From the NCBI RefSeq assembly GCF_000826645.1, contig NZ_JXJP01000014.1, forward strand, positions 186,001 through 250,000: DNA of 64,000 bases, written 5' to 3'. The first letter of the stretch is position 1. Each line of letters starts with the position of its first letter. The stretch comes from Psychroserpens mesophilus. Lineage in GTDB: Bacteria > Bacteroidota > Bacteroidia > Flavobacteriales > Flavobacteriaceae. Both the position numbers and the translations under genes were made by a program. Positions 6,969 to 27,571 of the stretch are shown here, piece by piece. The notes beneath the pieces were generated by a model. The model was not told the DNA's origin. It saw only the letters and a list, made by a program, of their open reading frames with translations, and ran no database searches.

Positions 6969-8013
6969 AAAAAAAGTTTTAATAACTGGAGGTGCGGGTT
7001 TTATTGGCTCCCACGTTGTGAGACTATTTGTTAAAAAGTATCCAAATTATCATATATTTAATTTAGATGCTCTAACCTATGCTGGAAATCTTGAAAATTT
7101 AACCGATATAGAGAAAGCTCCTAATTATACTTTTATAAAGGGAGATATAACAGACGAAAATTTCATAGAAAAAATTTTCGAATCCCATAAGTTTGATAGT
7201 GTTATTCATCTAGCTGCTGAATCTCACGTAGATAGATCTATCAAAGATCCATTGGCATTTGTTAAGACCAATGTTATCGGAACTATGATTCTACTCAACG
7301 CCTTCAAACGATGTTGGTCTGAAAACTTCAAAGATAAACTTTTTTATCATATTAGTACCGACGAAGTTTATGGTACCTTAGGAGATACTGGGCTGTTTAC
7401 CGAAAGCACATCGTATGACCCAAACTCTCCTTATTCTGCTTCAAAAGCTAGTTCTGATCATTTTGTACGGGCTTATGGAGAAACCTATAACTTGCCTTAT
7501 GTAATTTCTAATTGTTCAAATAATTATGGACAAAATCAATTTCCTGAGAAATTGATTCCGTTGTTTATAAATAACATCATTCACAACAAGCCTTTGCCAG
7601 TTTACGGAGACGGTAACTATACAAGAGATTGGTTGTATGTTAAAGATCATGCTATAGCTATAGACTTGATTTTTCATAATGGTAAAGAAAGTGAAACCTA
7701 CAATATTGGAGGATTTAATGAATGGAAAAATATAGACTTGGTAAAGCTATTGTGTACACAAATGGACACTAAGCTTAATCGTAAAAAGGGAAGCTCAGAA
7801 AAATTAATAACATTTGTGAAAGATAGACCTGGACATGATTTAAGGTATGCTATAGATGCCTCTAAGATTAATAAGGAATTAGGATGGAAACCCTCTGTTA
7901 CTTTTGAGGAAGGTTTGGAAAAAACAATTGAATGGTACTTAAATAATGAAGACTGGTTAAATAGTGTAACCAGTGGATCTTATAAATTGTATTATCAAAA
8001 TCAATACAGTTAG
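6958..8013 (+). CDS. rfbB: dTDP-glucose 4,6-dehydratase
   Basis: This is the second step of dTDP-L-rhamnose synthesis: dTDP-glucose is converted to the 4-keto-6-deoxy sugar with bound NAD. The start ATG at 6958 places the Rossmann motif GGAGFIG at residues 11-17; an upstream in-frame ATG at 6925 would lie inside the Wzz-like gene and add unrelated residues. The catalytic set of the family is present: Thr134-Asp135-Glu136 in STDEVYG and the Tyr159-x3-Lys163 pair in YSASK. The length of 351 residues is normal. It is followed 2 bases later by rfbA in the order B-A-C-D. Confidence 0.97.
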
Positions 8014-8015
8014 AA

Positions 8016-8882
8016 ATGAAAGGAATTATTTTAGCAGGAGGATCAGGAACAAGACTTCATCCATTAACATTGACTATCAGTAAGCAATTAATGCCTGTTT
8101 ATGACAAGCCAATGATTTACTATCCGCTTTCAACATTAATCTACGCTGGAATAAATGAGATATTAATTATTTCGACTCCAAAAGACTTACCCTTGTTTAA
8201 AGAATTACTCGGAGATGGAAAAAAATTAGGGTGTAAATTTGAATATGCAGAGCAAAGTGCTCCAAATGGTTTAGCCGAGGCTTTTATTATTGGAGCTGAT
8301 TTTATTGGAAACGATAAAGTTGCTCTCATTTTAGGCGATAATATTTTTTACGGCTCTGGCTTATCTAAGCTTTTACAGGCTAATAATGACCCTGATGGAG
8401 GTATTATTTATGCATATAGAGTTCATGATCCCGAACGCTATGGTGTGGTTGAGTTTGACGAGAAAGGACAAGTGATGTCTATCGAAGAAAAACCGAAAAA
8501 GCCAAAATCTAATTTTGCAGTACCAGGTATTTATTTCTATGATAATTCAGTTGTTGATATAGCAAAAAACATTACACCTAGTCATCGTGGAGAACTTGAA
8601 ATAACCGACGTTAATAAAGCATATTTAAACCGTAACAAACTACATGTTAGTATACTAGACAGGGGAACAGCATGGCTAGATACAGGAACTTTTCAATCTT
8701 TAATGCAGGCATCACAGTTTGTTGAGGTTATTGAAGAACGCCAAGGACTAAAAATAGGATCTATAGAAGCCGCAGCTTTTGAAATGGGCTTCATTTCAGA
8801 ATCAGATTTTAAAAACTTAGCTCGTCCACTTATGAAAAGTGGATATGGAAAAAATTTATTAGCATTACTTAAAGGCAAATAA
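8016..8882 (+). CDS. rfbA: Glucose-1-phosphate thymidylyltransferase
   Basis: The enzyme couples glucose-1-phosphate and dTTP to give dTDP-glucose, the entry step to dTDP-rhamnose. The 288-residue protein starts with the nucleotide-binding motif [13 protein letters not shown] and contains the metal/substrate motif LGDNIFYG and the sugar-site [15 protein letters not shown]. Length and motifs match RmlA throughout, including the helical C-terminal end. Its stop overlaps the rfbC start by one base (TAATG), so the two are translationally coupled. Confidence 0.97.
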
Positions 8883-9430
8883 TGAAGGTAACAGAAACAA
8901 AACTAGAAGGATGCTTCATTCTTGAGCCTAAAGTTTTTGAAGATAAAAGGGGTTATTTTTTTGAAAGCTTTAATCAAAATGGTTTTAACAAACTTGTTTC
9001 TAAGACGTCTGTCTTTGTTCAAGATAACGAGTCTTATTCTACAAAAGGAGTACTTAGAGGATTACATTATCAAATAGGAGAGCATGCTCAAGCAAAATTA
9101 GTTCGTGTTGTTCAAGGCTCAGTTTTGGACGTTGCGGTTGATTTGAGAAAGAATTCTAAAACCTTCGGAGAGCACATTTCGGTAGAATTATCAAATGATA
9201 ACAAAAAGCAATTATTTGTTCCAAGAGGTTTTGCTCATGGATTTATTGTGTTAAGTGATACTGCAATTTTTTCCTATAAATGTGACAATTATTACCATAA
9301 GGAATCTGAGGAAGGCATCCTCTACAATGATCCAACACTAAATATTGACTGGCAGTTACATAGTAACGAATTCATTGTTTCAGAAAAAGATATGCTATTA
9401 CCTAATTTTGAAGACGCAAAATTATGGTAA
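8882..9430 (+). CDS. rfbC: dTDP-4-dehydrorhamnose 3,5-epimerase
   Basis: The enzyme epimerises C3 and C5 of dTDP-4-keto-6-deoxyglucose in the rhamnose pathway. This 182-residue cupin protein carries the RmlC signature GVLRGLHYQ with the catalytic-position His62, followed by KLVRVVQGSVLDVAVDLR and the FVPRGFAHGF strand. Length is normal for RmlC. It overlaps rfbD by 7 bases and rfbA by one, so the four rhamnose genes form one tightly coupled unit. Confidence 0.97.
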   Translation: MKVTETKLEGCFILEPKVFEDKRGYFFESFNQNGFNKLVSKTSVFVQDNESYSTKGVLRGLHYQIGEHAQAKLVRVVQGSVLDVAVDLRKNSKTFGEHISVELSNDNKKQLFVPRGFAHGFIVLSDTAIFSYKCDNYYHKESEEGILYNDPTLNIDWQLHSNEFIVSEKDMLLPNFEDAKLW

Positions 9431-10290
9431 AGGTCTTAGTCACAGGAGGAGATGGACAGTTAGGTCATTGCTTAAGAGCCATAACAGAAAGGTTTGAAAA
9501 CATTCAATTCTTATTTACAAATAAAACAGAACTTGATATAACTCAAAAGACTAATATCGATGATTTTTTTACACTTAATAATTTTGATTGGTGTATAAAT
9601 TGTGCAGCATATACTGCAGTAGATAAAGCAGAAAGTGAAATAGAATCCTCTAAAAAAATTAACGTTACTGGCGTTAAAAATTTGGCTGAAGCGTGTCTTA
9701 AACATGACATAAAAATAATCCATATATCAACGGATTTTGTATTTGATGGTACACAAAATAGAGCTTATAAAGAAGATGTGCTCACTAATCCTTTAGGAGT
9801 TTATGGTAACACAAAACTTGGAGGAGAAAATGAGTTGAAAAAAATATGTTCAAAGCATTTCATTATTAGAACCTCATGGCTATATTCTGAATTTAATCAG
9901 AATTTTATGAAAACAATGCTTCGTTTGGCAAAAGATAAAGAGGAATTAAATATTGTTTCTGATCAAATTGGGTCACCAACGTATGCTAGAGATTTAGCAG
10001 AAGTTATTATGCTTATTATTAATCGGGATAGTTCAGATTACGGCCTTTATCACTACAGTAATGAAGGTGTGGCTAGCTGGTATGATTTTGCTAAAGCTAT
10101 ATTTGATTTAAACAGCAATACTGTTAAAGTGATTCCTGTTCCCACAGAGTCATATCCAACGCCATCAAAAAGACCACATTTTAGTGTATTAGATAAAACT
10201 AAAATTAAAACCACGTTTAATATAGAAGTTCCGTATTGGAGAGATAGTTTAAAATATGCTTTGTCTAATTTAGAATTAGTTAAAATATAG
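9424..10290 (+). CDS. rfbD: dTDP-4-dehydrorhamnose reductase
   Basis: This last enzyme reduces dTDP-4-keto-rhamnose to dTDP-L-rhamnose with NAD(P)H. The 288-residue protein has the Rossmann motif GGDGQLG (residues 8-14), Thr103-Asp104 in ISTDFVFDG, and the Tyr127-x3-Lys131 pair in YGNTK. Length and motifs match RmlD. With rfbA, rfbB and rfbC present the locus can make dTDP-rhamnose from glucose-1-phosphate on its own. A 177-base gap with a promoter separates it from gmd. Confidence 0.97.
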   Translation: MVKVLVTGGDGQLGHCLRAITERFENIQFLFTNKTELDITQKTNIDDFFTLNNFDWCINCAAYTAVDKAESEIESSKKINVTGVKNLAEACLKHDIKIIHISTDFVFDGTQNRAYKEDVLTNPLGVYGNTKLGGENELKKICSKHFIIRTSWLYSEFNQNFMKTMLRLAKDKEELNIVSDQIGSPTYARDLAEVIMLIINRDSSDYGLYHYSNEGVASWYDFAKAIFDLNSNTVKVIPVPTESYPTPSKRPHFSVLDKTKIKTTFNIEVPYWRDSLKYALSNLELVKI

Positions 10291-10467: not shown

Positions 10468-11586
10468 ATGCAAAAAAAGGTAGCATTAATTACAGGAGTA
10501 ACAGGACAAGATGGCGCATATTTAAGTGAGTTTCTTTTAAAAAAAGGATACGAAGTTCACGGAGTTAAAAGACGATCATCATTATTTAATACAGACCGAA
10601 TTGATCACTTATATCAAGATCCTCACGAAGAAAATCGAAACTTCTTTCTTCATTATGGAGACTTAACAGACAGTACTAATTTAATTAGACTTATTCAGGA
10701 AATTAAGCCTGATGAAATTTATAATTTAGCAGCAATGAGTCATGTTCATGTCTCATTTGAAACTCCTGAATATACAGCAAATGCAGATGGCATAGGTACT
10801 TTAAGAATTTTGGAAGCCATAAGAATCCTGGGCTTAGAAAAAACGACAAGAATATACCAAGCCTCAACTTCTGAACTTTACGGAAAAGTACAAGAAGTAC
10901 CTCAAACAGAAACAACGCCGTTTTACCCAAGAAGCCCTTATGCGGTTGCAAAAATGTACGCATACTGGATAACAGTTAATTATAGAGAAGCTTACGGTAT
11001 TTATGCTTGTAACGGAATTTTATTTAATCATGAATCTCCGATACGTGGAGAAACTTTTGTAACTCGTAAAATAACAAGAGCCACATCAAAAATAGCCTTA
11101 GGCTTACAAGATAAAATCTATCTAGGAAACCTTAATTCTAAAAGAGATTGGGGACATGCAAAAGATTATATTCGAATGATGTGGATGATTCTTCAGGCTG
11201 ATGAAGCAGAAGATTGGGTTATTGCTACTGGAAAAACAACTACAGTTCGTGACTTTGTAAAGATGTGTTTCAATCATATTGGAGTAGAATTAGAGTTTAA
11301 AGGCGAAGGATCTGATGAGAAAGGATACGTAAAATCATGTAGTAATACTGAATATAATTTAGAAATCGGCAAAGAAGTTATTGCTGTTGACGAAAAGTAT
11401 TACAGACCGACTGAAGTTGACTTACTGGTTGGTGATGCAACTAAGGCGAAAGAAAAACTAGGTTGGATTCCTAAATATGATTTACCAGCTCTTGTTGAAG
11501 ATATGATGTCGAGTGACTTAAATCTTATGAAAAAGCAGCAATACCTTAAAGATGGTGGATATAGAATCAAAAATTACTTCGAGTAG
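10468..11586 (+). CDS. gmd: GDP-mannose 4,6-dehydratase
   Basis: The enzyme converts GDP-mannose to GDP-4-keto-6-deoxymannose, the first step to GDP-L-fucose. The 372-residue protein has the NADP-binding motif GVTGQDG (residues 10-16), the catalytic Thr134 and Glu136 in STSELYG, and Tyr158/Lys162 in YAVAK. Length and motifs match Gmd. No manB or manC for GDP-mannose lies in the window, so that precursor must come from genes elsewhere. It sits 8 bases ahead of fcl and behind a promoter of its own. Confidence 0.97.
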
Positions 11587-11594
11587 AATATCTT

Positions 11595-12641
11595 ATGCGA
11601 AAGGAATCTAAAATTTACGTTGCAGGACACAGAGGCTTGGTTGGAAGCGCATTATTGGAGAACCTAAAAAATAAAGGATACCAAAACATAGTCACAAGAA
11701 CTCACAAAGAATTAGATCTTACAAATCAACTTGAAGTTGCTACTTTTTTTGAAACTGAAAAACCAGAATATGTGTTTTTAGCAGCTGCAAAAGTTGGAGG
11801 AATTGTAGCTAATAATGTTTACAGAGGAGAGTTTATCTACGATAATATGATGATTCAAAACAATGTGATTCATCAAAGTTATGTGAACCATGTAAAAAAG
11901 CTATTGTTTTTAGGAAGCACTTGTATATATCCAAAAAATGCAACGCAACCCATGAAAGAGAGCGAACTGCTTACGGATACTTTAGAATACACCAATGAGC
12001 CTTATGCCATAGCGAAAATTGCTGGTATTAAGATGTGTGAAAGTTACAATTTGCAATACAATACAAACTTCATATCAGTAATGCCTACAAATTTGTATGG
12101 ACCTAATGATAATTTTGATTTAGAAAAATCTCATGTGCTTCCTGCATTAATCAGAAAAATACATCTGGCTAAATTATTAAACGAGAACAATGATGACGAG
12201 GTGTTAACAGACACTGGTTTTTCATCTATAGAAGAAGCAAAAAACTATTTATCGTCTTTTGGAGTTTCTAAAAATCAAGTTGAAATTTGGGGAACAGGTA
12301 AGCCAAGACGAGAGTTTTTATGGTCTAAAGACATGGCTGATGCTTGTGTTTTTATTATGGAAAACAGAGATTTTAAGGATACATATTCTGAAGGTCAAAA
12401 AGAAATCCGTAACACACACATCAATATTGGAACTGGAGAAGATATCTCTATTGCTGAGTTAGCTGAAACGATAAAAAACATTATAGGATTTAAAGGTGAT
12501 CTGGTTTACAATACAGAGAAACCTGATGGGACACTCAGAAAGTTGACAGATGTATCAAAATTGAATGCCTTAGGATGGAAACATAAAATGTCATTGGAAG
12601 ATGGAATAAAGAATATGTATGCGTGGTATAGAACTAAATAA
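11595..12641 (+). CDS. fcl: GDP-L-fucose synthase
   Basis: The enzyme epimerises and reduces the Gmd product to GDP-L-fucose. The Rossmann motif GHRGLVG is at residues 11-17, Ser108-Thr109-Cys110 stands before the active site, and Tyr137/Lys141 in YAIAK complete it. At 348 residues it is about 30 longer than the E. coli enzyme as I remember it (about 320). The extra length is an acidic helical insert at about residues 196-228, just before the [14 protein letters not shown] strand. Other Bacteroidota enzymes have a similar insert as I remember them. Its end overlaps the cysQ start by 23 bases. Confidence 0.95.
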
Positions 12642-13425
12642 AAATTTAAAAACAGCTATAGAAGCCTCTTTAAAAGCTGGAGAGGTGATTATGCAGGTTT
12701 ACGACACTGCTTTTGATGTGGAAATTAAAGATGATAAATCACCTTTAACCGAAGCAGATAAAAAAGCAAATGATATTATTAATTCATTTCTGAAGCCGAC
12801 ACCAATTCCAATTATTAGTGAAGAGAATAAACAATTAGATTATTCTATTAGAAAGGAATGGAAAAGCTGTTGGATTGTAGATCCTGTGGATGGTACAAAA
12901 GAATTTATCAAGCGAAATGGCGAATTTACCGTCAATATCGCATTGGTACAAGATGGAAAACCAGAATTAGGAGTTATTTACGTTCCAGCTTCTAAAACAC
13001 TATACTTCGCTGATGTTTTAAATCAGCAAGCCTATAAAACAGAATTAAATTCTCATGACACAGCAATTGAAGACGTATTAAGTAATGCAAAAAAATTGCT
13101 TGTAAAAGACAGAACTAATACAATACAAGTTGTAGGAAGTAGGTCGCATATGAGTCAGGAAACATTAGATTTTGTCGAAGGCTTAAAGGCCTCTGGAAAT
13201 GAAGTTGAAATCGTTTCTAAAGGAAGTTCATTAAAGTTTTGTCTTGTTGCTGAAGGTAATGCAGATATTTATCCGAGATTTGCACCAACTATGGAATGGG
13301 ATACTGCAGCTGGTCAGGCTATTTGTAATGCTGTTGGAGTTGAGGTCATTTCCGAAGCGACTAAAAAACCACTTTTATACAATAAAGAAAACCTACTCAA
13401 CCCTTGGTTTATTGTAAGTAAATAA
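12619..13425 (+). CDS. cysQ: 3'(2'),5'-bisphosphate nucleotidase CysQ
   Basis: CysQ removes the 3'-phosphate of PAP, the by-product of PAPS-dependent sulfation, and so relieves inhibition of sulfotransferases. The 268-residue protein has the metal-site motifs of the lithium-sensitive phosphatase superfamily: SEEN (residues 67-70), [10 protein letters not shown] with Asp88, Asp91 and Thr93, and the C-terminal EWDTAAGQA. The ATG at 12619 lies inside the end of fcl, a 23-base overlap in another frame. Position next to cysC, cysD and cysN supports a role in PAPS turnover. Confidence 0.93.
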
Positions 13426-13880
13426 TGAAAGATCAATCCCATAAGAGGCATATCGCAAAAACGATTACATGGAGAATAGTTGGGACTATAGATACCATAA
13501 TCCTCTCATGGATCATTTCAGGAAACCCTGTAACCGGATTGAAAATTGGATTAGCAGAAGTTATAACAAAAATGCTGCTCTACTATTTACATGAAAGAGC
13601 ATGGTTCAAAATTAATTTATCAAAAGACGGAGAATTGCTTGAGAGCAGAAAACGCCACTTAGCCAAAACATTTACATGGAGGCTTATAGGAACTATTGAC
13701 ACTATGATTCTGGCCTGGGCAATTTCTGGAAACCCGTTAACTGGTTTAAAAATTGGATTTGCTGAAGTCGTAACGAAAATGTTATTATATTATCTGCACG
13801 AGAGAGCTTGGTATAAAGTAAATTACGGACTATCGGATAGAAAAAAATTAAGTAATGGCAAAACACATCATACCTCATAG
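13425..13880 (+). CDS. Tandem DUF2061 membrane protein
   Basis: The 151-residue protein is an internal duplication. Repeat 1 (residues 7-63, KRHIAKTITWRIVGTIDT to LLYYLHERAW) and repeat 2 (residues 76-132, KRHLAKTFTWRLIGTIDT to LLYYLHERAW) are nearly identical, with a charged linker between. Each repeat holds a hydrophobic span after TIDT and a second one before LHERAW, so about four membrane passes are expected. I recognise it as DUF2061, whose function is unknown. The gene starts one base into the cysQ stop and overlaps cysC by 26 bases, so it is locked into the PAPS gene block. A role in sulfate or PAPS handling is inferred from this position only. Confidence 0.88.
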   Translation: MKDQSHKRHIAKTITWRIVGTIDTIILSWIISGNPVTGLKIGLAEVITKMLLYYLHERAWFKINLSKDGELLESRKRHLAKTFTWRLIGTIDTMILAWAISGNPLTGLKIGFAEVVTKMLLYYLHERAWYKVNYGLSDRKKLSNGKTHHTS

Positions 13881-14451
13881 CTATAAAATTTCTAAAGAAG
13901 ATAGATTAGAAGCTAACAAACACAACGCTTTTTTATTGTGGTTTACAGGATTATCAGGTTCTGGTAAATCAACTATTGCCAATGTTGTTGAACAGAAATT
14001 ATTTGAAAAAGGAATAAACACCTATACGCTTGATGGTGACAATATTAGAAAAGGCATAAATAACGACTTATCATTTTCGCCAGAAGACAGAACAGAAAAC
14101 ATAAGACGTATTGCTGAAGTTTCAAATTTAATGGTAGAAGCTGGTCTGGTGGTTTTAGCCGCATTTGTTTCGCCATATAAAAAAGACAGAGAGAATATTA
14201 GAACTATCGTTAAAGATGTTAACTTTGTCGAAGTTTATATCAATGCAAGTGTTGAAGAATGTGAGCGTAGAGATGTAAAAGGACTTTATAAGAAAGCAAG
14301 AGCAGGTGAGATAAAGAACATGACTGGAATATCTGCACCTTATGAAGCACCTGAAAATCCAGATATTGAGATAAACACAGAAACGGAATCGATTGAAGAC
14401 GCTGCAAAACGAATAGTAGATTATATAACACCAAAATTGTCAAGGCAATAA
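13855..14451 (+). CDS. cysC: Adenylyl-sulfate kinase
   Basis: CysC phosphorylates APS at the 3' position to make PAPS, the sulfate donor. The P-loop GLSGSGKST is at residues 32-40, followed by the APS-site segment LDGDNIRKGIN and the SPEDRTENIRRIAEV helix, then FVSPYKKDRE. The length of 198 residues fits a stand-alone APS kinase and there is no fused sulfurylase domain. It overlaps the DUF2061 gene by 26 bases and cysD by one, which points to tight translational coupling. Confidence 0.97.
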   Translation: MAKHIIPHSYKISKEDRLEANKHNAFLLWFTGLSGSGKSTIANVVEQKLFEKGINTYTLDGDNIRKGINNDLSFSPEDRTENIRRIAEVSNLMVEAGLVVLAAFVSPYKKDRENIRTIVKDVNFVEVYINASVEECERRDVKGLYKKARAGEIKNMTGISAPYEAPENPDIEINTETESIEDAAKRIVDYITPKLSRQ

Positions 14452-15356
14452 TGAGTAAATATTATTTAAATTATTTAGACGAATTAGAGAGCGAAGCTAT
14501 TTTCATATTACGTGAAGTTTGGGCTCAATTTGATAACCCTGTAATTCTGTTTTCAGGAGGAAAAGATTCAATTCTTGTAACACATTTAGCAAAAAAAGCA
14601 TTTTATCCTGCTAAAATTCCGTTTCCTTTAATGCACGTAGATACAGGTCATAATTTCCCTGAAACCATTCAGTTTAGAGACGATATTATAAAAGATCTAG
14701 GAGTTGAACTTATTGTAGGTTCTGTTCAAGAGTCTATTGATGAAGGACGTGTTGCTGAAGAAAGAGGGAAAAACGCAACCAGAAATGCACTTCAAATTAC
14801 AACTCTACTTGATGCTATTGAATCTAATAAAATAGATTGCGCAATTGGAGGAGGTCGTCGTGATGAAGAAAAAGCAAGAGCTAAAGAGCGTTTCTTTTCA
14901 CACAGAGATGATTTTGGACAATGGGACCCTAAAAACCAAAGACCTGAACTCTGGAATATATTTAACGGAAGACATTTTGAAGGCGAACACTTTAGAGCAT
15001 TTCCAATAAGTAACTGGACAGAAATGGATGTATGGAATTACATCAAACGTGAAAATATAGCCATTCCATCCTTATACTTCGCTCATGAACGTGAAGTGGT
15101 TTGGAGACAAGACTCTTGGATACCAAATTCTGAGTTCTTAGTTCTTGAAGACCACGAAGAAATCGTCACTAAAAAAATACGCTTTAGAACACTTGGTGAT
15201 ATAACCATTACAGGAGGAATTGAATCTGATGCAGATACTTTAGAGAAAATTGCAGAGGAAGTTTCTGGAATGCGTCAGACTGAAAGGGGAAACCGAAGTG
15301 ATGACAAGCGCTCTGAGTCTGCCATGGAAGATCGAAAGCGTCAAGGTTATTTTTAA
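14451..15356 (+). CDS. cysD: Sulfate adenylyltransferase subunit 2
   Basis: CysD is the catalytic subunit that makes APS from ATP and sulfate. The PP-loop motif SGGKDS is at residues 35-40. Further family landmarks are MHVDTGHNFPET, the arginine-rich GGGRRDEEKARAKERFFS and the C-terminal TERGNRSDDKRSESAMEDRK. The 301-residue length is normal. It works as a heterodimer with CysN, whose gene starts 17 bases downstream. Confidence 0.97.
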   Translation: MSKYYLNYLDELESEAIFILREVWAQFDNPVILFSGGKDSILVTHLAKKAFYPAKIPFPLMHVDTGHNFPETIQFRDDIIKDLGVELIVGSVQESIDEGRVAEERGKNATRNALQITTLLDAIESNKIDCAIGGGRRDEEKARAKERFFSHRDDFGQWDPKNQRPELWNIFNGRHFEGEHFRAFPISNWTEMDVWNYIKRENIAIPSLYFAHEREVVWRQDSWIPNSEFLVLEDHEEIVTKKIRFRTLGDITITGGIESDADTLEKIAEEVSGMRQTERGNRSDDKRSESAMEDRKRQGYF

Positions 15357-15373
15357 AGATTAAACTTATACCA

Positions 15374-16630
15374 ATGTTAGATAACAATCAATTATTACGT
15401 TTTACTACAGCGGGAAGTGTAGATGATGGAAAAAGTACCTTAATAGGTCGTTTGCTATACGATTCAAAATCTATATTTGAAGATCAATTAGAGGCTATTG
15501 AAAATACAAGTAAAAAGAAAGGTCATGAAGGCGTTGACTTGGCTTTATTTACAGATGGTCTGAGAGACGAAAGAGAGCAAGGAATTACCATTGATGTAGC
15601 TTACAGATACTTTACAACACCAAAACGTAAATTTATCATTGCTGATACGCCTGGACATATTCAATACACCAGAAATATGGTAACAGGAGCATCAACAGCT
15701 AATGCCGCTATTATTTTAGTTGATGCACGCCATGGTGTTATTGAACAAACTAGACGACATTCATTTATTGCTTCATTATTACAAATACCACATGTTATCG
15801 TTTGTGTAAATAAAATGGATTTGGTTGATTTTTCTGAAGAAGCTTACAACAAAGTCATTAATCAGTTTGAAGAATTTTCTTCTAAAATGCTCGTAAGAGA
15901 TGTACGTTTTATTCCTATCAGTGCTTTATTAGGTGATAATGTTGTGAATCGCTCTGAAAATATGGATTGGTACCAAGGAGCTCCTTTATTACATACCTTA
16001 GAAACCATGCACATTAGTAGTGATATTAATAAAGTTGATGCACGTTTCCCTGTTCAAACAGTCTTAAGACCACAGAATGATACACATAGAGATTACAGAG
16101 GTTACGCAGGAAGAGTTGCAAGTGGCATTCTAAGAGTTGGTGATGAGGTTACTGTAATGCCATCAGGATTTACATCTGTAATAAAAAGTATAGATACTTT
16201 AGATAAATCATTAAATGAAGCTTACGCACCAATGTCGGTTTCGATAACTTTAGAAGACGATATTGATATCAGTAGAGGCGATATGATTGTAAGGTCTAAC
16301 AATAAACCAGAAGCTCTTCAAGATATTGAAGTTATGTTATGCTGGTTGCATAATGATAGCGCAAAACCAAGAGCAAAATATAGTATTAGGCACACCTCTA
16401 ATGAGCAAAAGGCCATGATTAAAGAGGTGGTTTATAAGATAAATATTGAAACTTTAGATCGAAATACTGAAAACAAAGATCTAAGAATGAACGATATTGC
16501 AAAAGTTAAAATAAGAACTACGAAACCCTTGATGATTGATTCTTATAGAGATAATAAGACCACAGGAAGTATTATTTTAATTGATGACGCAACAAATGAG
16601 ACTGTTGCAGCAGGAATGATTAAATATTAA
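15374..16630 (+). CDS. cysN: Sulfate adenylyltransferase subunit 1 (GTPase)
   Basis: CysN is the EF-Tu-like GTPase that drives APS formation by CysD. Its G-motifs are intact: GSVDDGKST (residues 14-22), DTPGHIQYTRNM and NKMDLVDF, followed by two beta-barrel domains. At 418 residues it ends without a fused APS kinase domain, which agrees with the separate cysC upstream. No PAPS reductase (cysH) or sulfite reductase gene is in the window, so the block as seen makes PAPS and does not reduce it. Confidence 0.97.
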   Translation: MLDNNQLLRFTTAGSVDDGKSTLIGRLLYDSKSIFEDQLEAIENTSKKKGHEGVDLALFTDGLRDEREQGITIDVAYRYFTTPKRKFIIADTPGHIQYTRNMVTGASTANAAIILVDARHGVIEQTRRHSFIASLLQIPHVIVCVNKMDLVDFSEEAYNKVINQFEEFSSKMLVRDVRFIPISALLGDNVVNRSENMDWYQGAPLLHTLETMHISSDINKVDARFPVQTVLRPQNDTHRDYRGYAGRVASGILRVGDEVTVMPSGFTSVIKSIDTLDKSLNEAYAPMSVSITLEDDIDISRGDMIVRSNNKPEALQDIEVMLCWLHNDSAKPRAKYSIRHTSNEQKAMIKEVVYKINIETLDRNTENKDLRMNDIAKVKIRTTKPLMIDSYRDNKTTGSIILIDDATNETVAAGMIKY

Positions 16631-16640
16631 TAATTTAATT

Positions 16641-17177
16641 ATGAGAAATTATTTATTAGTTTTCTTTTTAGTAGCATCTGTTTTTGCTTGTAAAGAGGAG
16701 AAACAAGTAGAAATTAAAAGCACTCAGGAAAAACAACTGGTCAAAAGCAAAGAAGCCTTATCATTTATGCTAGAGGCTATAATTGAAAATAGCGGGACAT
16801 TCACATTATTTTATCTGGAAGAAGGACAAGAACAAATTACTTTAAAAAATTCAAAATCCACTGAGGTCAAGGGTTCTGCAGAGCCTCAAGTAATATCATT
16901 TACAATAAGAGATGAAATTATTCCCGATAAGTTGTTTTTAAGATTTGTAAATGATGAAAAACAACAAACAATTACTGTTAAAACCACATCACTATTTTAT
17001 GGTAAAAAATCTATAGTTATTCAAGATAGCTTGTTTTACCAATATTTTATGCCTAATAAATTTGTTGATTATGATGTCAACAATTTTAAGGCTACAACTA
17101 AGGAAATCGATGGAGAATATCTACCAAGATTTAGCTCAAGAGATGTACTTCTTCAAAAAATGCTCTTAGAGTTTTAG
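16641..17177 (+). CDS. Small lipoprotein of unknown function
   Basis: The 178-residue product has a lipoprotein signal, MRNYLLVFFLVASVFAC, with Cys17 as the likely lipidated residue followed by a charged KEEKQ stretch. The mature part is about 160 residues, soluble, beta-rich in appearance and without recognisable motifs. I do not recognise the family. It starts 10 bases after cysN and precedes the flippase gene, so it is probably transcribed with the PAPS block. It could be an envelope accessory protein of the polysaccharide system, but nothing in its sequence shows this. Confidence 0.75.
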   Translation: MRNYLLVFFLVASVFACKEEKQVEIKSTQEKQLVKSKEALSFMLEAIIENSGTFTLFYLEEGQEQITLKNSKSTEVKGSAEPQVISFTIRDEIIPDKLFLRFVNDEKQQTITVKTTSLFYGKKSIVIQDSLFYQYFMPNKFVDYDVNNFKATTKEIDGEYLPRFSSRDVLLQKMLLEF

Positions 17178-17189
17178 TTTACAATAAAC

Positions 17190-17210
17190 AGTAATGTGTT
17201 ACTTCTTTTT
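17190..17210 (+). terminator. Weak possible terminator after the lipoprotein gene
   Basis: AGTAA (17190-17194) and TTACT (17199-17203) could form a 5-bp stem with a TGTG loop, followed by TCTTTTT. The stem is short, so this may only attenuate transcription into the flippase gene. Confidence 0.3.
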
Positions 17211-17266
17211 AAAATTGCTATAACATGTAATTTGCCAAAAGATTAGTAATACTCAAATAACCAATA

Positions 17267-18586
17267 ATGGCAAAAGCTAGAGACGAAAACTTTATAGAGT
17301 TAATTAAAGGCAGCTCTATTTCGCTTGTCTTAAAAGTTGTAGGCATGCTTTTTGGTTACGTTATAATGCTCTTTATAACCAAATATTATGGCGCTGAAGA
17401 ATGGGGAATCTATTCGCTATGCTTAACTGTTTTAAGTGTCGCACTTTTGCTGCCCAGATTTGGTTTTGATAGCTCTTTGGTGAGAATTATTGCAGAACTG
17501 AATAATGAGAATAAACAATCCAATATTTATGGGGTTTTGTTTAAATCTATAATGATTTCAATAGCTTTATCTTTAACTGTTATTGTTATAGTCACCTTGT
17601 TTTCAGAACTATTAGCCACTAAAGTTATAAAGCAGCAAGAGATGGTTTATTATTTTAAAATAATAAATATAGCCGTTATTCCTATGGCTTTGCTAACCAT
17701 AATTAGTGCAGTATTTCAAGCTTTAAAAAAAACAACGCTTTTTATGTTGTTTCAAACGACATTAATCAATGTGGTATTTTTTATTTTTTTACTTATTTAT
17801 AAATCCTTAGAAATTGATCTTAAAACGTTTAACTTATATGTAATTTCTGTTGTTGTTGTTCTATTAATTTCTTTTTTGTTTTTGTTCAAAACTTTTAAAT
17901 CACTTAATAAGAATTCGACAAAAAGTGAGAAAAAAACAGACTACTCATATACTAAAATTTGTAAAGTATCTTTCCCAATGATGATGTCGAGTTCATTTGC
18001 ATTACTCATGGGTTGGTCAGATATTTTTATGTTGTCTTATTACAAAACCGCAACAGATATTGGTATCTATAATTCTACATTAAAACTGGCTGCTTTGTCT
18101 AGTATTACTCTAATGGCAGTAAACGCCATTGCAACACCTAAATTTGTTGAGTTCTATACGAGTAAGAATATGTTAGGATTAGAAGAAATTGTAAAAAAAT
18201 CTACCAAAATGATTTTCTTAACATCTTTACCAATTCTTTTAGTTCTAATTATTTTTTCAAAACCCATACTCGGATTTTTTGGTGATGAATTTAGATTGGG
18301 TTACTTGGCATTGATATATTTGTGCATTTCAAGATTTGTAAATGCTATCTCGGGATCTGTAGGGTATATAATGCAGATGACTGATCAACAAAAAGTATTT
18401 CAAAACATCCTTATAATAGCCTTTGTAATCAATTTGCTATTAAATTATTTGTTAATACCTAAATACAGTTATGATGGAGCGGCCATTGCAAGTAGTTTAT
18501 CTATGATTTTTTGGAATATAGCTTTGGTGCTTATCATTAAAGCAAAATTAGGATTTTGGACTTTTTATAATCCTTTTACAAAATAA
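17267..18586 (+). CDS. Wzx-type polysaccharide flippase
   Basis: The 439-residue protein is highly hydrophobic with about 12 predicted membrane helices. It begins with the polysaccharide-biosynthesis motif IELIKGSSISLVLKVVGMLF and contains the middle landmark KVSFPMMMSSSFALLMGWSD, both typical of the MATE-like Wzx family. Wzx proteins flip lipid-linked repeat units from the cytosolic to the periplasmic side. It lies 89 bases after the lipoprotein gene and 3 bases before the end of the convergent sulfotransferase gene. Substrate cannot be read from the sequence. Confidence 0.9.
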   Translation: MAKARDENFIELIKGSSISLVLKVVGMLFGYVIMLFITKYYGAEEWGIYSLCLTVLSVALLLPRFGFDSSLVRIIAELNNENKQSNIYGVLFKSIMISIALSLTVIVIVTLFSELLATKVIKQQEMVYYFKIINIAVIPMALLTIISAVFQALKKTTLFMLFQTTLINVVFFIFLLIYKSLEIDLKTFNLYVISVVVVLLISFLFLFKTFKSLNKNSTKSEKKTDYSYTKICKVSFPMMMSSSFALLMGWSDIFMLSYYKTATDIGIYNSTLKLAALSSITLMAVNAIATPKFVEFYTSKNMLGLEEIVKKSTKMIFLTSLPILLVLIIFSKPILGFFGDEFRLGYLALIYLCISRFVNAISGSVGYIMQMTDQQKVFQNILIIAFVINLLLNYLLIPKYSYDGAAIASSLSMIFWNIALVLIIKAKLGFWTFYNPFTK

Positions 18587-18589
18587 CTT

Positions 18590-19516
18590 TTAATAATCTT
18601 GCGACTTCCAGCTATCTAATTTTTTATTTAAGAGAACTTCTAATTTTTTAATGTCATCCTTAAAAACATTGTTTAGATATAATTTAGCGTCGTCCCGTAT
18701 TTCAGGTCTTTCACCTTCTTTGTAAAAAACGTTTTTATTAAAAAATGCTTTGAGTTTGTGAGGCGCAATATTTCTAATAAAACCTAACTTGGTTTTATAT
18801 TGTAAAACATATTTAGATAAACCATTTTTAGGAGCACTATACTTATTGTGTATCTCATCAATATTAATGTTTTGACATGAGTCAATTTCCAAAAATTTAA
18901 AAACGTCGAGTAAGCCTTGTTCCAAATCATTAAAAAACTCCTCATAAATAATAACTTTTATATGTTCTTTTTTAAATGTGTCAAAATAGGTTTTAACTTG
19001 GTTGTGATACATACCTAATTCTTTGTAAAGAAAAACTTTACCATTTCCCCATACCTTTGGTTGGGTGGTTTCATCTCTTTTAACAGCTTTAAAAAAATCG
19101 GTTTCGGTTTCAGTGCCGCTTTTTAAATTCATCAAATAATGAGAAAAAGTCCTCATGACTGGATTCCTCAATATGATAAGAATTTTTGCATTGGGAAAAT
19201 CTGAATATATTCGCTTAGAAGCCTCTATATCCCACAGGTAGGATGGACTAGAATCACCTACTATTTTAAATTTATTTGATGTATTGTAAAGTGAAAAATA
19301 GACTGCTTGATCATTTATAATTTTATTATGGTAAAACACGCCTTCTTTTGGCTTATTGTAAACCAAAGGATCTTCAGATTCAATATTTGAATAATAATTA
19401 GGTTCTTTTACTTTTGGGAAAAACACCTCTGGATGCTGATTTAAATAATTATATAAAGATGTCGTTCCAGATTTGGCAGCACCAACAATAAATAAATTAA
19501 TATTTGGTTTTTTCAT
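18590..19516 (-). CDS. PAPS-dependent sulfotransferase
   Basis: The 308-residue protein carries the 5'-phosphosulfate-binding motif at its start (FIVGAAKSGTTSLYNYL) and a 3'-phosphate motif further on (ILIILRNPVMRTFSHYLM), the order found in sulfotransferase domains that act on carbohydrates or other acceptors. Such enzymes move sulfate from PAPS to a hydroxyl and release PAP. It has no signal peptide, so it should act in the cytosol on nucleotide- or lipid-linked sugars. It is the only gene on the minus strand inside the main block, yet it lies 1.4 kb from the genes that make PAPS and recycle PAP. The acceptor is inferred to be the locus glycan. Confidence 0.9.
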   Translation of the reverse strand: MKKPNINLFIVGAAKSGTTSLYNYLNQHPEVFFPKVKEPNYYSNIESEDPLVYNKPKEGVFYHNKIINDQAVYFSLYNTSNKFKIVGDSSPSYLWDIEASKRIYSDFPNAKILIILRNPVMRTFSHYLMNLKSGTETETDFFKAVKRDETTQPKVWGNGKVFLYKELGMYHNQVKTYFDTFKKEHIKVIIYEEFFNDLEQGLLDVFKFLEIDSCQNINIDEIHNKYSAPKNGLSKYVLQYKTKLGFIRNIAPHKLKAFFNKNVFYKEGERPEIRDDAKLYLNNVFKDDIKKLEVLLNKKLDSWKSQDY

Positions 19517-19632: not shown

Positions 19633-19681
19633 GCGCAATAGTAATTGGTATAAATTGCTATTGTTTAGAAATGGAATATCA

Positions 19682-20437
19682 ATGAAACTCTCTATAATAA
19701 CAGCAACATTTAATAGTGAGAAAACACTTGCTGCAACAATTAACTCAATCTTGAAACAAACCCAAGTTAATATTGAGTATATTGTTGTAGATGGAGCTTC
19801 AACAGATCAAACAATTGATATTATTAAAAGTTTTGAAGAAGTGTTTAAATCCAAAGGGATCACTTTCAAATGGATTTCAGAAAAAGATAATGGCATTTAT
19901 GACGCTTGGAACAAGGGCTTACAATTATCAACAGGCGAATGGATTTCATTTTTAGGCTCTGACGATATCTATGTTGACAATGCTCTAAAGTCTTATAGTG
20001 AGTTTATATCTCAACAGGAAAAAGAGATTGATTTAGTATATTCTAATGTTAATATTATTAATGACAATGGCGATGTATTAAGAAAAATTAACGGGAAATG
20101 GTCTTGGAAAGTTTTTAGAAGGAAAATGAATATTGCTCATGTTGGCTCATTTCATAATATGAAGTATTTTGAAAAATATGGAAAATTTAATACAGATTAT
20201 AAAATTGCAGGAGATTATGAATTACTGTTAAGAGCCAGAAAAACATTAAGAACAGCAAAGCTAGATTTGGTAACAGTTATGATGGGTTATGGAGGTATAA
20301 GTAATAATCAAATATTTAAGGTGTTTAGTGAATCAATAAGAGCAAAGCACGAAACAGGTAGAGTACATATCCTTTTGTGTTATGTAGATTTCTTAAAAGA
20401 ATACTTAATCTATATGATTAAAAAGATTCTGTATTAA
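19682..20437 (+). CDS. Family 2 glycosyltransferase
   Basis: The ATG at 19682 gives MKLSIITATFNSEKTL, the usual family start; an in-frame upstream start would add nine residues with no support. The GT-A fold landmarks are present: VVDGASTDQT, EKDNGIYDAWNKG and the metal-binding LGSDD. The product of about 251 residues lacks a clear signal and ends in a hydrophobic helix (KEYLIYMIKKILY) that could tether it to the membrane. GT2 enzymes use nucleotide sugars to build the lipid-linked repeat unit. The donor cannot be told from the sequence. Confidence 0.92.
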   Translation: MKLSIITATFNSEKTLAATINSILKQTQVNIEYIVVDGASTDQTIDIIKSFEEVFKSKGITFKWISEKDNGIYDAWNKGLQLSTGEWISFLGSDDIYVDNALKSYSEFISQQEKEIDLVYSNVNIINDNGDVLRKINGKWSWKVFRRKMNIAHVGSFHNMKYFEKYGKFNTDYKIAGDYELLLRARKTLRTAKLDLVTVMMGYGGISNNQIFKVFSESIRAKHETGRVHILLCYVDFLKEYLIYMIKKILY

Positions 20438-20460
20438 TCTCTTTATGAGGCAAGCAAAAC

Positions 20461-21627
20461 ATGAGTAAAAAAACAATTCTATTTATACACCAGTCTTCAG
20501 AATTATACGGTTCGGATAAAACATTATTCTATTTAGCAAAATGCATTAATGAAAACCCTCAATTTAATGCTATAGTAGTTCTTCCTCATGATGGTCCACT
20601 GAAAAAATTATTAGAAGAAAACGCTATTAAAGTCTTAACAACACCAATAGTAAAAGTATCTCGTAGTATGTTTAATTTTAAAAATATACTTTTACTGCCT
20701 TTTACAATTGTATCATCGGTTTGGAAATTAAGAAAATCTCTTAAAAACGTTAAAATAGATATTATACATTCTAATACTGTTGCGGTATTAGTTGGAGCTT
20801 TTTACTCTAAAACTTATAATATTAAGCATATTTGGCATATTCATGAAATTATTGAAAAACCAAAGCCTGTGAAGTTGGCTTACCCTGTGTTGATGCATTA
20901 TTTTTCAAACAAGGTTGTTTATAATTCTGAAGCCACAAAGAGTTTTTATAATAATGAGAATAAAAAACTCATAAAAAAATCAAACACAATTTTAAATGGA
21001 TTAGATAGAGATCAGCAAATCACACCGTTACATGTTAAAATGAGTATTAAAAAAGAACGCTTTAAGGCTAATGAGAATGATATTATTATTGGATTAGTTG
21101 GAAGAATAAATAAGCGAAAAGGTCATAATTTATTGCTGAACTCTTTTGAGAATCTATTAACTAAGTATGATAATATTAAGCTAGTTTTTGTTGGATCTGC
21201 TCCTCCTGGTCAAGATTTTATTGTTGATGATTTACAAAATCTAATAGCTGAAAAAAACTTAAAAAGTAAATGTATAATATTACCGTTTCAAACCAATATT
21301 TGGAGAATTTATGACAGCATGGATATTGTTGTAGTTCCCTCTACTGAGCCAGAATCTTTTGGACTCGTTGCACTTGAAGCGATGTTATCAAGCAAAGCTG
21401 TTATAGCTTCTAATCATGGTGGAATTAGAGAAATTGTAAGACATAATAAAACAGGGTTTCTTTTTGAACCAGGCAACATGAATGAGCTAATGGCGTTTTT
21501 AGAAGTATTAATTACTGACAAAGCAAAGTGCATTGAGTTTGGGCAAGAGGGAGAAAAAAGAGCCAAGGAAAAGTTTTCGCTTTATGGCTATATGGAAGAA
21601 TTTACTAAATTATACTCAGGTATTTGA
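20461..21627 (+). CDS. Family 4 glycosyltransferase
   Basis: The 388-residue protein begins with TILFIHQSSELYGSDKTL, a GT4-type acceptor-domain start, and has the C-terminal donor-domain signature EPESFGLVALEAMLSSKAVI followed by HGGIREIV. The E-x7-E spacing typical of retaining GT-B enzymes is visible there. It sits between the GT2 gene and a Wzy-like gene with short gaps (23 and 19 bases), so it is part of the same transcript. It should add one sugar of the repeat unit on the cytosolic face. Confidence 0.92.
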   Translation: MSKKTILFIHQSSELYGSDKTLFYLAKCINENPQFNAIVVLPHDGPLKKLLEENAIKVLTTPIVKVSRSMFNFKNILLLPFTIVSSVWKLRKSLKNVKIDIIHSNTVAVLVGAFYSKTYNIKHIWHIHEIIEKPKPVKLAYPVLMHYFSNKVVYNSEATKSFYNNENKKLIKKSNTILNGLDRDQQITPLHVKMSIKKERFKANENDIIIGLVGRINKRKGHNLLLNSFENLLTKYDNIKLVFVGSAPPGQDFIVDDLQNLIAEKNLKSKCIILPFQTNIWRIYDSMDIVVVPSTEPESFGLVALEAMLSSKAVIASNHGGIREIVRHNKTGFLFEPGNMNELMAFLEVLITDKAKCIEFGQEGEKRAKEKFSLYGYMEEFTKLYSGI

Positions 21628-21646
21628 AAACAATAGATTCTAACGG

Positions 21647-22933
21647 ATGAAAATTAAAACCCAAAAACTATTTAAGGCTTCATTTTATATATTGCTTTTT
21701 CTTAGTTTATTTATTAAATCTATTGAATTAAATCTACTTGCAGGGTTTTTAATATTCTTTTTTATTTCATCATTTACGTCAAATAAATATTCAACGACAT
21801 TAATAAATGTAATAACTCCTCTTCTTTTAATCCTGTTGATTTCTTTTGCCTCTGGCCTGTTTTATGATGCGAAACTTTACGACGTCATTAAAGACTTTAG
21901 TTTTTTTCTTAAACCCATTTTATTTATTGTTTTAGGGTTTTTATTGATTTCTAGAATTACGGACAAGAATTTTATCTTTAGAGCCTTAATTTATACGGCA
22001 GTAATATCTGCTACGATTCATTTAGTAGAATTACTAATATTTACCATAAATCATCCGTTTTCAGTAAACAGAATTAGAGGAGATCTTGGTCGAGATAATT
22101 TTATAGAACTTTTTGCCTTAGTCTTACTTTTTGTAAAATCAACAAGAGTTTTCTATTCTGAAGCAATATTAAAACGAATAAATATATTTAAATTCATCCT
22201 TCTGGTGTCTTTTGTTTTTTACTTTTCGAGAACAATGGTTATCTCATTTTTTATTGTCATCATTGCTTTAAATGGTTACGCCAAAATTTCTAGTCGTGGT
22301 TTAATTTACATTACAATATTCAATTTATTAACCATTGCTTTATTTACATCGCTTCAATTTGCGGATTTGAAAAGAGAAAGTAAGGGAGTTGAAGGATTTT
22401 TCTACAAAATTAAAATGGCACCTTCTGAGATTTTTTCTCCAGATATTGATATTAACACCAAAAACCACAGGAGTCTTTGGGATCATTGGAGAGCATACGA
22501 AGCCTTAAAGGCCATTGAAGGAATAAGTGACACAAAATATAAACTAGGCTGGCTTTTTGGAAAAGGACTCGGAGCACAAGTTGATTTGGGTTTTGAGGCA
22601 CCTTTAGACGGTAAAAAATTTCAATACATTCCTATCATCCATAATGGTTATGTTTATGTAATATTTAAGTCTGGAATTATCGGACTTATAATTTATTTGG
22701 TATTTTTATTAATTACCTACATGCAATCCTATAAACAAGGAAATTACCATGTAAGTGTCATAAATAATTTTATTTCTGGTATTGCATTGTTTTTTATGCT
22801 AACATCATTAATTATTACAGGAATTTACAATTCAAGTGACATTATAGTGTTTATTCTTGGAGGTTTATTCGCATTACAATTCTATTATTCTAACCAGCAT
22901 CAAACGAATGAAGATAGGCATATTAGGAACTAG
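21647..22933 (+). CDS. Wzy/O-antigen-ligase-like membrane protein
   Basis: The 428-residue protein has about 10-12 predicted membrane helices with one large periplasmic loop (about residues 235-330, containing NTKNHRSLWDHWRAYEALK and IIHNGYVYVIFK). This arrangement, with a conserved HNGY-type motif after the loop, is typical of the Wzy_C/O-antigen ligase superfamily. It probably polymerises repeat units in the periplasm. A second protein of the same type lies one gene downstream, so which of the two is the polymerase cannot be decided here. Its end overlaps the next glycosyltransferase by 26 bases. Confidence 0.82.
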   Translation: MKIKTQKLFKASFYILLFLSLFIKSIELNLLAGFLIFFFISSFTSNKYSTTLINVITPLLLILLISFASGLFYDAKLYDVIKDFSFFLKPILFIVLGFLLISRITDKNFIFRALIYTAVISATIHLVELLIFTINHPFSVNRIRGDLGRDNFIELFALVLLFVKSTRVFYSEAILKRINIFKFILLVSFVFYFSRTMVISFFIVIIALNGYAKISSRGLIYITIFNLLTIALFTSLQFADLKRESKGVEGFFYKIKMAPSEIFSPDIDINTKNHRSLWDHWRAYEALKAIEGISDTKYKLGWLFGKGLGAQVDLGFEAPLDGKKFQYIPIIHNGYVYVIFKSGIIGLIIYLVFLLITYMQSYKQGNYHVSVINNFISGIALFFMLTSLIITGIYNSSDIIVFILGGLFALQFYYSNQHQTNEDRHIRN

Positions 22934-23999
22934 AGGTATACCCAATTATCATGGAGGTTTTGAGCAATTTGCTGAATTCTTTTCGGTTTATCTAACACAA
23001 AACAATCACGAGGTTTATGTGTATAATTCCAGTAAACACCCTTATCAAAATAAGGTGTTTAAAGGAGTTAATATTATTCACTGTAAAGACCCAGAAGACA
23101 GAGTAGGAACTGCTGGACAATTCATTTATGATTTGAATTGTATTCTAGATGCGAGAAAGCAAAATTTTGATATTTTATTGCAATTAGGATATACCAGTAG
23201 TACAATTTGGCATAAATTTTTACCAAAAAATGCTACTATTATAACGAATATGGATGGTCTTGAATGGAAACGTTCAAAATATTCTAAGAAAGTACAAAGG
23301 TTTTTAAAATATGCTGAAAAGTTGGGTGTGAAATCAAGTGATTATTTAATTTCAGACTCCATTGGTATTCAAAATTATCTGAAAAAAGAGTATGGTGTAG
23401 ATTCAGAATATATAGCTTATGGTGCAGAACTTTTCAATACTCCAAATATTGATTTAATTAAGGAATATCATCTTGAACCTTATAAATATAACATGCTAAT
23501 TGCTCGTTTAGAGCCAGAAAACAACATTGAAACTATTTTAGACGGTGTCGCATTAGCAAAGGAAAAGTCAACGTTTTTAGTGGTAGGGAAACACGATGTT
23601 AATTCATTTGGAGCATACTTAAAGAAAAAATTTAAAGACACGACGAACATTAAGTTTATTGGTGGGATCTATAACTTAGAGCACCTTAATAACTTGAGGT
23701 ATTTTTCTAATTTGTATTTTCATGGTCATTCTGTCGGCGGAACCAATCCTTCATTATTAGAAGCGATGTCTTCAAAAGCTTTAATAGTTGCTAATAATAA
23801 TGAATTTAATAAATCAATATTACAGGATAATGCCTTTTATTTTGAAAGTCCTGAAGACGTAAAATTTCATTTAGAAGAAACACATAAAAAGGAGCATAGT
23901 ATAAAAATCGAAAATTGTTACAATCAAATTGATAAAAAATTTAGTTGGAATATTATTAATAAAAAGTATTTAGACTTCTTTTATGAGTGTAAGAGATAA
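22908..23999 (+). CDS. DUF1972-type glycosyltransferase, possible rhamnosyltransferase
   Basis: The ATG at 22908 gives MKIGILGTRGIPNYHGGFEQ, the signature of the DUF1972 N-terminal domain. An upstream in-frame ATG lies deep in the Wzy-like gene and is unlikely. The 363-residue protein continues with NMDGLEWKRSKYSKKVQRFL and a donor domain with HSVGGTNPSLLEAMSSKALI. Family members I know of include rhamnosyltransferases of streptococcal and S-layer glycans, so rhamnose transfer from the dTDP-rhamnose made upstream is a fair guess. The gene overlaps its neighbours on both sides (26 and 17 bases). Confidence 0.88.
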   Translation: MKIGILGTRGIPNYHGGFEQFAEFFSVYLTQNNHEVYVYNSSKHPYQNKVFKGVNIIHCKDPEDRVGTAGQFIYDLNCILDARKQNFDILLQLGYTSSTIWHKFLPKNATIITNMDGLEWKRSKYSKKVQRFLKYAEKLGVKSSDYLISDSIGIQNYLKKEYGVDSEYIAYGAELFNTPNIDLIKEYHLEPYKYNMLIARLEPENNIETILDGVALAKEKSTFLVVGKHDVNSFGAYLKKKFKDTTNIKFIGGIYNLEHLNNLRYFSNLYFHGHSVGGTNPSLLEAMSSKALIVANNNEFNKSILQDNAFYFESPEDVKFHLEETHKKEHSIKIENCYNQIDKKFSWNIINKKYLDFFYECKR

Positions 24000-25233: not shown

Positions 25234-25243
25234 TATTATTTTA

Positions 25244-25251
25244 TACTTTTG
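25244..25251 (+). promoter_or_regulatory. -7 element upstream of ugd
   Basis: TACTTTTG lies 20 bases before the ugd ATG at 25272, in a 38-base gap. It fits TAnnTTTG and could give ugd, uxs and the glycosyl-phosphotransferase a separate promoter. Confidence 0.5.
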
Positions 25252-25271
25252 CTCAACAATTTAGATAAAAA

Positions 25272-26579: not shown

Positions 26580-26580
26580 G

Positions 26581-27570: not shown

Positions 27571-27571
27571 G

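Follow-up and report, generated by a model that had tools for sequence, protein, structure and literature searches.

Are sulfate-activation genes that lie inside a polysaccharide locus there for cysteine synthesis or for the sulfation of a glycan? The question is raised by a 64,000-nucleotide stretch of the Psychroserpens mesophilus genome, hereafter the window (bases 186001-250000 of contig 6; genome of 3.68 Mb in 72 contigs, 99.97% complete). In the window, cysQ, a gene with tandem DUF2061 domains, cysC, cysD and cysN form a tight run at 12619-16630, flanked by gmd-fcl and wzx, and a sulfotransferase gene of the type that uses 3'-phosphoadenosine 5'-phosphosulfate (PAPS) lies beyond the flippase gene (Table 1). 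The block is very probably a self-contained sulfation module with a dedicated PAPS supply, set in a Wzx/Wzy-type surface-polysaccharide locus, and its predicted product is likely a sulfated surface polysaccharide. This reading was reached because cysC tracks the sulfotransferase and not sulfite reductase across the family, the order cysQ-DUF2061-cysC-cysD-cysN recurs, for the most part in polysaccharide loci, and the CysD proteins of the module and of assimilation form separate lineages.

In the following scheme, what each enzyme does, that the acceptor is a glycan and where sulfate is added are all predictions. CysDN would convert sulfate and ATP to adenosine 5'-phosphosulfate (APS), and CysC would convert APS to PAPS. 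Still in the cytoplasm, the adjacent sulfotransferase would use PAPS to sulfate a sugar of the growing repeat unit, CysQ would remove the product 3'-phosphoadenosine 5'-phosphate (PAP), and Wzx would flip the repeat, with polymerisation next. The genome's three further sulfotransferases, including one encoded in another glycan locus, would draw on the common PAPS pool.

The PAPS gene block and the sulfur genes of the genome

The first-pass annotation had described the five genes as closely spaced between gmd-fcl and wzx, and open reading frames of the expected families were confirmed there. The gaps along fcl, cysQ, the DUF2061 gene, cysC, cysD and cysN are -23, -1, -26, -1 and +17 bp, and CysD, CysN, CysC and CysQ, encoded together, make by family a set for PAPS synthesis and recycling. 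The PAPS-type sulfotransferase, for which no strand had been given, was found on the minus strand, convergent with wzx and separated from it by 3 bp. PAPS genes and a sulfotransferase thus stand together in a single polysaccharide cluster, a combination that has been described as a hallmark of sulfated polysaccharide synthesis (PMC11641403; this and all later papers are cited from excerpts of their text).

The gene cysC is single-copy in the genome. PF01507 (PAPS_reduct) gave two matches genome-wide, namely the window CysD and a CysH-like gene of 233 amino acids on contig C71 (L002:1363-2064), which stands alone near sucC. A genome check for cysH and for a second cysDN set had been proposed; it returned this one cysH and no other cysC or cysD. 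The sulfite reductase family PF01077 had 0 matches in the genome, while the same search was positive in 11 of 14 control genomes, so the sulfite reductase of assimilatory sulfate reduction was not found here. A cysH-cysIJ set elsewhere that depends on a sole cysDNC copy had been named as the finding that would speak against sulfation; the cysH half exists, on another contig, and the sulfite reductase half does not appear.

The CysH has an ECGLH tail and the cysteine pairs of an Fe-S site. Such pairs as a rule mark APS rather than PAPS reductases. Because no sulfite reductase was matched and the CysH has the Fe-S (APS-type) pattern, the predicted sulfotransferases are the only recognised PAPS users in this genome. 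Four sulfotransferase matches were obtained: the window gene and one each on contigs C1, C71 and C12. The C71 gene sits in what by eye is a second glycan-type locus (L127:1-14001) with putative glycosyltransferases and two flippases, so PAPS made by the window's enzymes may be used for two polymers. On C12 (L128:6002-8602), an 866-amino-acid fusion combines a type I phosphodiesterase domain, TPR repeats and a C-terminal sulfotransferase domain; PF13469-matching frames of 843-856 amino acids are also present in G037, G064, G101 and G141. The sole genome match to the sulfatase family PF00884, the one sulfatase family searched, is the phosphodiesterase part of this fusion. As no dedicated PF00884 sulfatase was found, the genome is that of a likely maker of sulfated glycan without the look of an eater of it.

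Distribution of the block in the family and the DUF2061 protein

Co-occurrence was counted in 199 family genomes from 198 genera, with cysC scored at better than 1e-40, sulfotransferase by PF13469 at 1e-6 and sulfite reductase by PF01077. At 1e-3, cysC matched 133 genomes, from which 90 loci in 89 genomes were kept, the rest being weak or partial (for example G058 at 2e-17). A strong cysC match was present in 89/199 genomes and a PF13469 match in 70/199. Both were found in 67 genomes, cysC only in 22, sulfotransferase only in 3 and neither in 107 (odds ratio 109, p=1e-29); 67 of the 70 sulfotransferase genomes therefore contain cysC. For cysC and sulfite reductase, the corresponding numbers were 48 (both), 41 (cysC only), 66 (sulfite reductase only) and 44 (neither), with p=0.47. 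Since cysC is uncorrelated with sulfite reductase and 66 of the 114 sulfite reductase genomes lack it, cysC is dispensable for assimilation in this family. PAPS_reduct is single-copy in 11 of the 41 cysC-positive genomes lacking sulfite reductase, leaving no cysH there. The earlier proposal of a locus that supplies PAPS for its own glycan sulfation is well supported, if by inference; in the family, cysC tracks the sulfotransferase.

Three sets of regions were compared: 90 cysC loci (20 kb), 40 sulfite reductase loci (12 kb; 20 from the 48 cysC-positive genomes and 20 from the 66 cysC-negative ones) and 20 control regions, which were fixed places picked by hand and not random draws. At least two polysaccharide-type genes were found in 69/90 cysC loci, against 1/20 control regions and 0/40 sulfite reductase loci; such genes were absent from 16/90 cysC loci. 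A purpose-built sulfotransferase model (four rounds, E 1e-4; 72 matches, 38 with the strict motif in the first 60 residues) gave matches in 48/90 cysC loci, 0/20 controls and 0/40 sulfite reductase loci, and by Pfam positions alone a sulfotransferase lies no more than 20 kb from cysC in 36/90 loci. The order cysQ-DUF2061-cysC-cysD-cysN is the common one, recurring in many of the 90 cysC loci, and several show the longer order rml, gmd, fcl, the five genes, wzx, sulfotransferase.

In a tree of 101 CysD proteins, all 28 assimilatory proteins fell in a single clade (support 1.0) and all 73 module proteins, the window CysD included, fell outside it. The usual order of the family's sulfite reductase loci is DUF2061-cysH-cysD-cysN-sulfite reductase; this assimilatory locus has CysDN and a DUF2061 protein in common with the module, but its DUF2061 protein is single-domain, its CysD is of the separate lineage and it has neither cysC nor cysQ. 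cysDN was present in 28/40 of the chosen sulfite reductase loci and absent from 12/40. At the cysC locus, cysDN was present in 41/41 cases in genomes without sulfite reductase and absent from 17/49 in genomes with it, a pattern to be expected if the latter can borrow APS. Nine cysC-positive genomes, a congener included, hold cysH and sulfite reductase together without cysDN, and eight of the nine have just two PAPS_reduct genes; the module CysDN is therefore probably shared with assimilation in those nine.

Median identity to the window proteins was 88% for CysD, 82% for CysN, 67% for DUF2061, 63% for CysC and 60% for CysQ, and 29% for both Wzx (15 loci) and the sulfotransferase (21 loci). A predicted donor supply that stays constant is thus combined with a decorating enzyme that varies. 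An MBOAT acyltransferase-like gene and a partner were seen by eye within the module or directly behind it in two relatives, the congener being one (L056:7445-10341 and L089:8240-11281), a hint that O-acylation may accompany sulfation. Whether assimilation depends on cysC was also probed through the CysH type, a test that was rejected because the motif does not split cysC-positive from cysC-negative loci: 36 of the 37 CysH found in the 40 sulfite reductase loci are without the Fe-S cysteine pairs, 18 per group. In the cysC-negative genomes (L183-L202), this applies to 18/19 CysH, which, PAPS being absent, should be APS reductases without the cluster.

Several points weigh against the sulfation reading. 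PF13469 (at 1e-6) was unmatched in 22/89 cysC genomes, the purpose-built model found no sulfotransferase in 42/90 cysC loci, and the co-occurrence p-values are too small because the genomes share kinship. The window sulfotransferase lies on the strand opposite to the module, and both enzyme activity and the sulfated polymer are deduced from genes. Most of the PAPS could go to the other three sulfotransferases, and the CysH may draw on the same CysDN. A Bacteroides sulfotransferase beside such genes sulfates cholesterol and not a glycan (PMC9417993).

The tandem DUF2061 protein showed a distribution of its own. The tally covers 133 frames; among the matches listed, 40 of 41 tandem-length proteins lie no more than 0.8 kb from cysC and none near sulfite reductase, while 75 of 92 short ones lie no more than 8 kb from sulfite reductase and none near cysC. 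DUF2061 was found in 67/73 cysC loci with cysDN vs 4/17 without, and in 27/28 sulfite reductase loci with cysDN vs 1/12 without. An anion-permease relative was found in 2/6 cysC loci that have cysDN and no DUF2061 vs 0/71 with DUF2061 (p=0.005), and one of these two relatives is about 4.7 kb away from cysC; in L142, from another family of the same class, a CitMHS/TrkA_C permease lies immediately upstream of cysC. Since DUF2061 tracks cysDN, a permease relative stands in two of the cysDN loci that lack it, and the published PAPS sets of Cobetia and Bacteroides include a sulfate permease or a proposed importer, a role in sulfate supply is plausible. Against this role, no such permease was found in four of the six cysDN loci without DUF2061, three SulP-type (PF00916) genes and one PF00939 gene are located elsewhere in the genome, and a DUF2061 gene is iron-responsive in Caulobacter according to the excerpt consulted; DUF2061 is also among regulated genes in Shewanella, again from an excerpt. 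That the protein is a small membrane component supplying ATP sulfurylase with sulfate, as an importer, a channel or a docking site, duplicated for glycan-sulfation PAPS and single for assimilation, is put forward tentatively and is on balance unlikely. Its predicted structure was poor (mean predicted local distance difference test score, pLDDT, of 60; predicted template modelling score, pTM, of 0.34). DUF2061 as the sole sulfate importer was considered and found unsupported, given these PF00916 and PF00939 genes of the genome.

The sulfotransferase acceptor and other duties of the block

The top match of the window sulfotransferase was the bacterial structure PDB 3rnl (E 2.8e-39), with heparan sulfate N- and 3-O-sulfotransferases next, weakly. 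Its predicted model was moderate (pLDDT 64.6, pTM 0.70), the remaining four models being poor (pLDDT 42-48). A fold search with this model placed it in the sulfotransferase fold, with 3rnl first (E 2.9e-15, template modelling score 0.78 by target), heparan sulfate sulfotransferases as the next neighbours and cytosolic sulfotransferases (SULTs) lower in the ranking. Residues G12, G17, T18, T19, R117 and S125, which we take to be PAPS-binding sites, are unchanged across 4 aligned relatives, and Asp88 aligns with a glutamate of the heparan enzyme, presumably its catalytic base. Because of the heparan-type fold neighbours, the kept PAPS residues and the Asp88 alignment, a carbohydrate acceptor is suggested. 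The first-pass annotation had gone further, naming fucose, rhamnose or xylose as the sulfated sugar and calling the polymer fucoidan-like; no analysis bears out these sugars, and the latter term is a guess.

Three relatives of the sulfotransferase were found in named genomes, the closest (88% identical) in metagenome bin L132 with the same locus order. The bin is titled Algicola, a gammaproteobacterial genus in the NCBI taxonomy, which fits the locus poorly, and the title may be wrong. A contig of Candidatus Nitrosotenuis, an archaeon, encodes a sulfotransferase 36% identical to that of the window (L133:10001-10840).

A second duty of CysDN, compatible with the sulfation module as a side branch, is possible though doubtful: it would feed the stray CysH, whose sulfite would go to a sulfonate, for example a sulfonolipid, and not to cysteine. 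The Fe-S cysteine pairs and ECGLH tail of CysH in a genome without sulfite reductase are consistent with it, as are the two PAPS_reduct genes likewise kept in several other family genomes without sulfite reductase. Sulfite may then be an end product, for instance for sulfonolipids, though this is an idea only.

It is improbable that the window sulfotransferase acts on a small molecule or lipid, the glycan staying unsulfated. An acceptor is not readable from the sequence, and in Bacteroides the proposed PAPS enzymes Bt_0411-0415 stand beside the cholesterol sulfotransferase Bt_0416 (PMC9417993). The window gene, however, is flanked by the flippase and glycosyltransferase genes of a polysaccharide locus and is as variable as the flippase gene, and in the fold search heparan sulfate enzymes came next after 3rnl, ahead of cytosolic SULTs.

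Very improbable is an assimilatory set that lies in the polysaccharide locus by chance and sends APS or PAPS to cysteine: the CysH-like gene on C71 and the relatives, congener included, that probably share the module CysDN at a cysH-sulfite reductase locus without cysDN would fit it, but with no sulfite reductase match in this genome, no cysC in 66/114 sulfite reductase genomes and a separate lineage of module CysD, assimilation is rejected as the purpose, both here and for cysC across the family.

Locus surroundings, related systems and significance

The features of the locus are presented in Table 1. CysN scored 589.3 against the PRK05124 equivalog, marginally under the cut-off of 590. The 178-amino-acid protein between cysN and wzx gave no match in Pfam and NCBIfam scans, and relatives are present in 7 further cysC loci among those fetched. 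No Wza/Wzc family match was obtained among the window proteins scanned between 463 and 40070 (40070-64000 was outside the scan). The predicted surface polymer may be a capsule, an exopolymer or an O-antigen, classes that these genes do not separate.

Table 1. Features of the polysaccharide locus in the window
Feature	Position	Strand	Basis or remark
rmlB, rmlA, rmlC, rmlD (dTDP-rhamnose)	6925..10290	+	TIGR01181, TIGR01207, TIGR01221, TIGR01214 over cut-off
gmd, fcl (GDP-fucose)	10468..12641	+	TIGR01472 over cut-off; NF047922 453.8 bits, under cut-off 500
cysQ, 3'(2'),5'-bisphosphate nucleotidase (PAP removal)	12619..13425	+	TIGR01331 266.8 bits, cut-off 228.8
Membrane-type protein, two DUF2061 domains	13425..13880	+	PF09834, two stretches
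cysC, APS kinase	13855..14451	+	PF01583; TIGR00455 256.9 bits, cut-off 138.7
cysD, sulfate adenylyltransferase small subunit	14451..15356	+	TIGR02039 over cut-off
cysN, sulfate adenylyltransferase large subunit	15374..16630	+	TIGR02034 558.6 bits, cut-off 336.1
Small 178-amino-acid protein, family unassigned	16641..17177	+	Lipoprotein-like start (by eye); between cysN and wzx
wzx-type flippase	17267..18586	+	PF01943 and PF01554 over cut-off
PAPS-dependent sulfotransferase	18590..19516	-	PF13469 64.0 bits, PF00685 52.1 bits, both over cut-off
Remaining polysaccharide locus	19655..28930	+	Genes in the rows below
Glycosyltransferases	19655, 20461, 22857	+	Within 19655..28930
Wzy-like proteins	21647, 23983	+	Within 19655..28930; 21647 no Pfam match, 23983 under Wzy_C cut-off
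UDP-sugar dehydrogenase	25272	+	Within 19655..28930
UDP-sugar epimerase/decarboxylase-type protein	26581	+	Within 19655..28930
WcaJ-type initiating transferase	27572	+	Within 19655..28930

PAPS genes with a sulfotransferase in a polysaccharide cluster are an already known logic, seen in Vibrio and Cobetia, and in Bacteroides with another acceptor. The capsule clusters of Vibrio sp. KMM 8419 and Cobetia marina KMM 1449 contain cysN, cysD, cysC, sulfotransferases and rhamnose genes, that of C. marina also cysQ and a sulfate permease (PMC11641403, PMC11766843). Sulfation of those polymers is proven by nuclear magnetic resonance. Both organisms are Gammaproteobacteria with ATP-binding cassette (ABC) transporter capsules, cysN and cysC are fused in Cobetia, a sulfate permease stands in place of the tandem DUF2061 protein, and the Vibrio genes are described as second copies while the window cysC and cysD are sole copies (PMC11641403, PMC11766843). 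In Bacteroides thetaiotaomicron, apparently of the same phylum-level group, the PAPS genes of Bt_0411-Bt_0416 likewise adjoin a sulfotransferase; there, the acceptor of Bt_0416 is cholesterol, BT_0412 is a proposed sulfate importer, and a polysaccharide locus goes unmentioned in the excerpt (PMC9417993). The glycosaminoglycan-like cluster of Pontiella sulfatireligans has a PF13469-type sulfotransferase beside glycosyltransferases and a sulfated exopolymer measured in that organism, but it belongs to Verrucomicrobiota and the word PAPS is absent from the paper's text (PMC7356697).

The first-pass annotation had held a sulfated glycan from a flavobacterium to be notable, and sulfate in a flavobacterial exopolymer has precedent: a review, in a passage on Winogradskyella, ascribes metal binding by the exopolysaccharide of Antarctic sponge isolates to uronic acids and sulfate groups (PMC9605250). 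No account of such a module in flavobacteria was found in the open-licence literature. As far as those papers were searched, three things are new: how widely the module is spread in the family, how it is kept apart from assimilation, and the presence of the tandem DUF2061 protein in the place taken by an anion permease in some other lineages.

Marine sulfated polysaccharides are usually credited to algae, and Bacteroidota are seen as degraders. In a Shark Bay study, all of its Bacteroidetes genomes were without a sulfotransferase gene at a BLAST threshold of 30% identity (PMC9723792, excerpt). Bacteria such as these contribute to the pool of sulfated polymers if what they make is indeed sulfated. 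In genomes, the module offers a simple way to mark producers. The DUF2061 link gives a family of unassigned function a testable role and, if the supply reading is true, there would be, with the separate CysD lineages, two distinct sulfate routes within one family. Should the sulfation reading be true, a sizeable share of a family known to feed on sulfated glycans would produce them as well.

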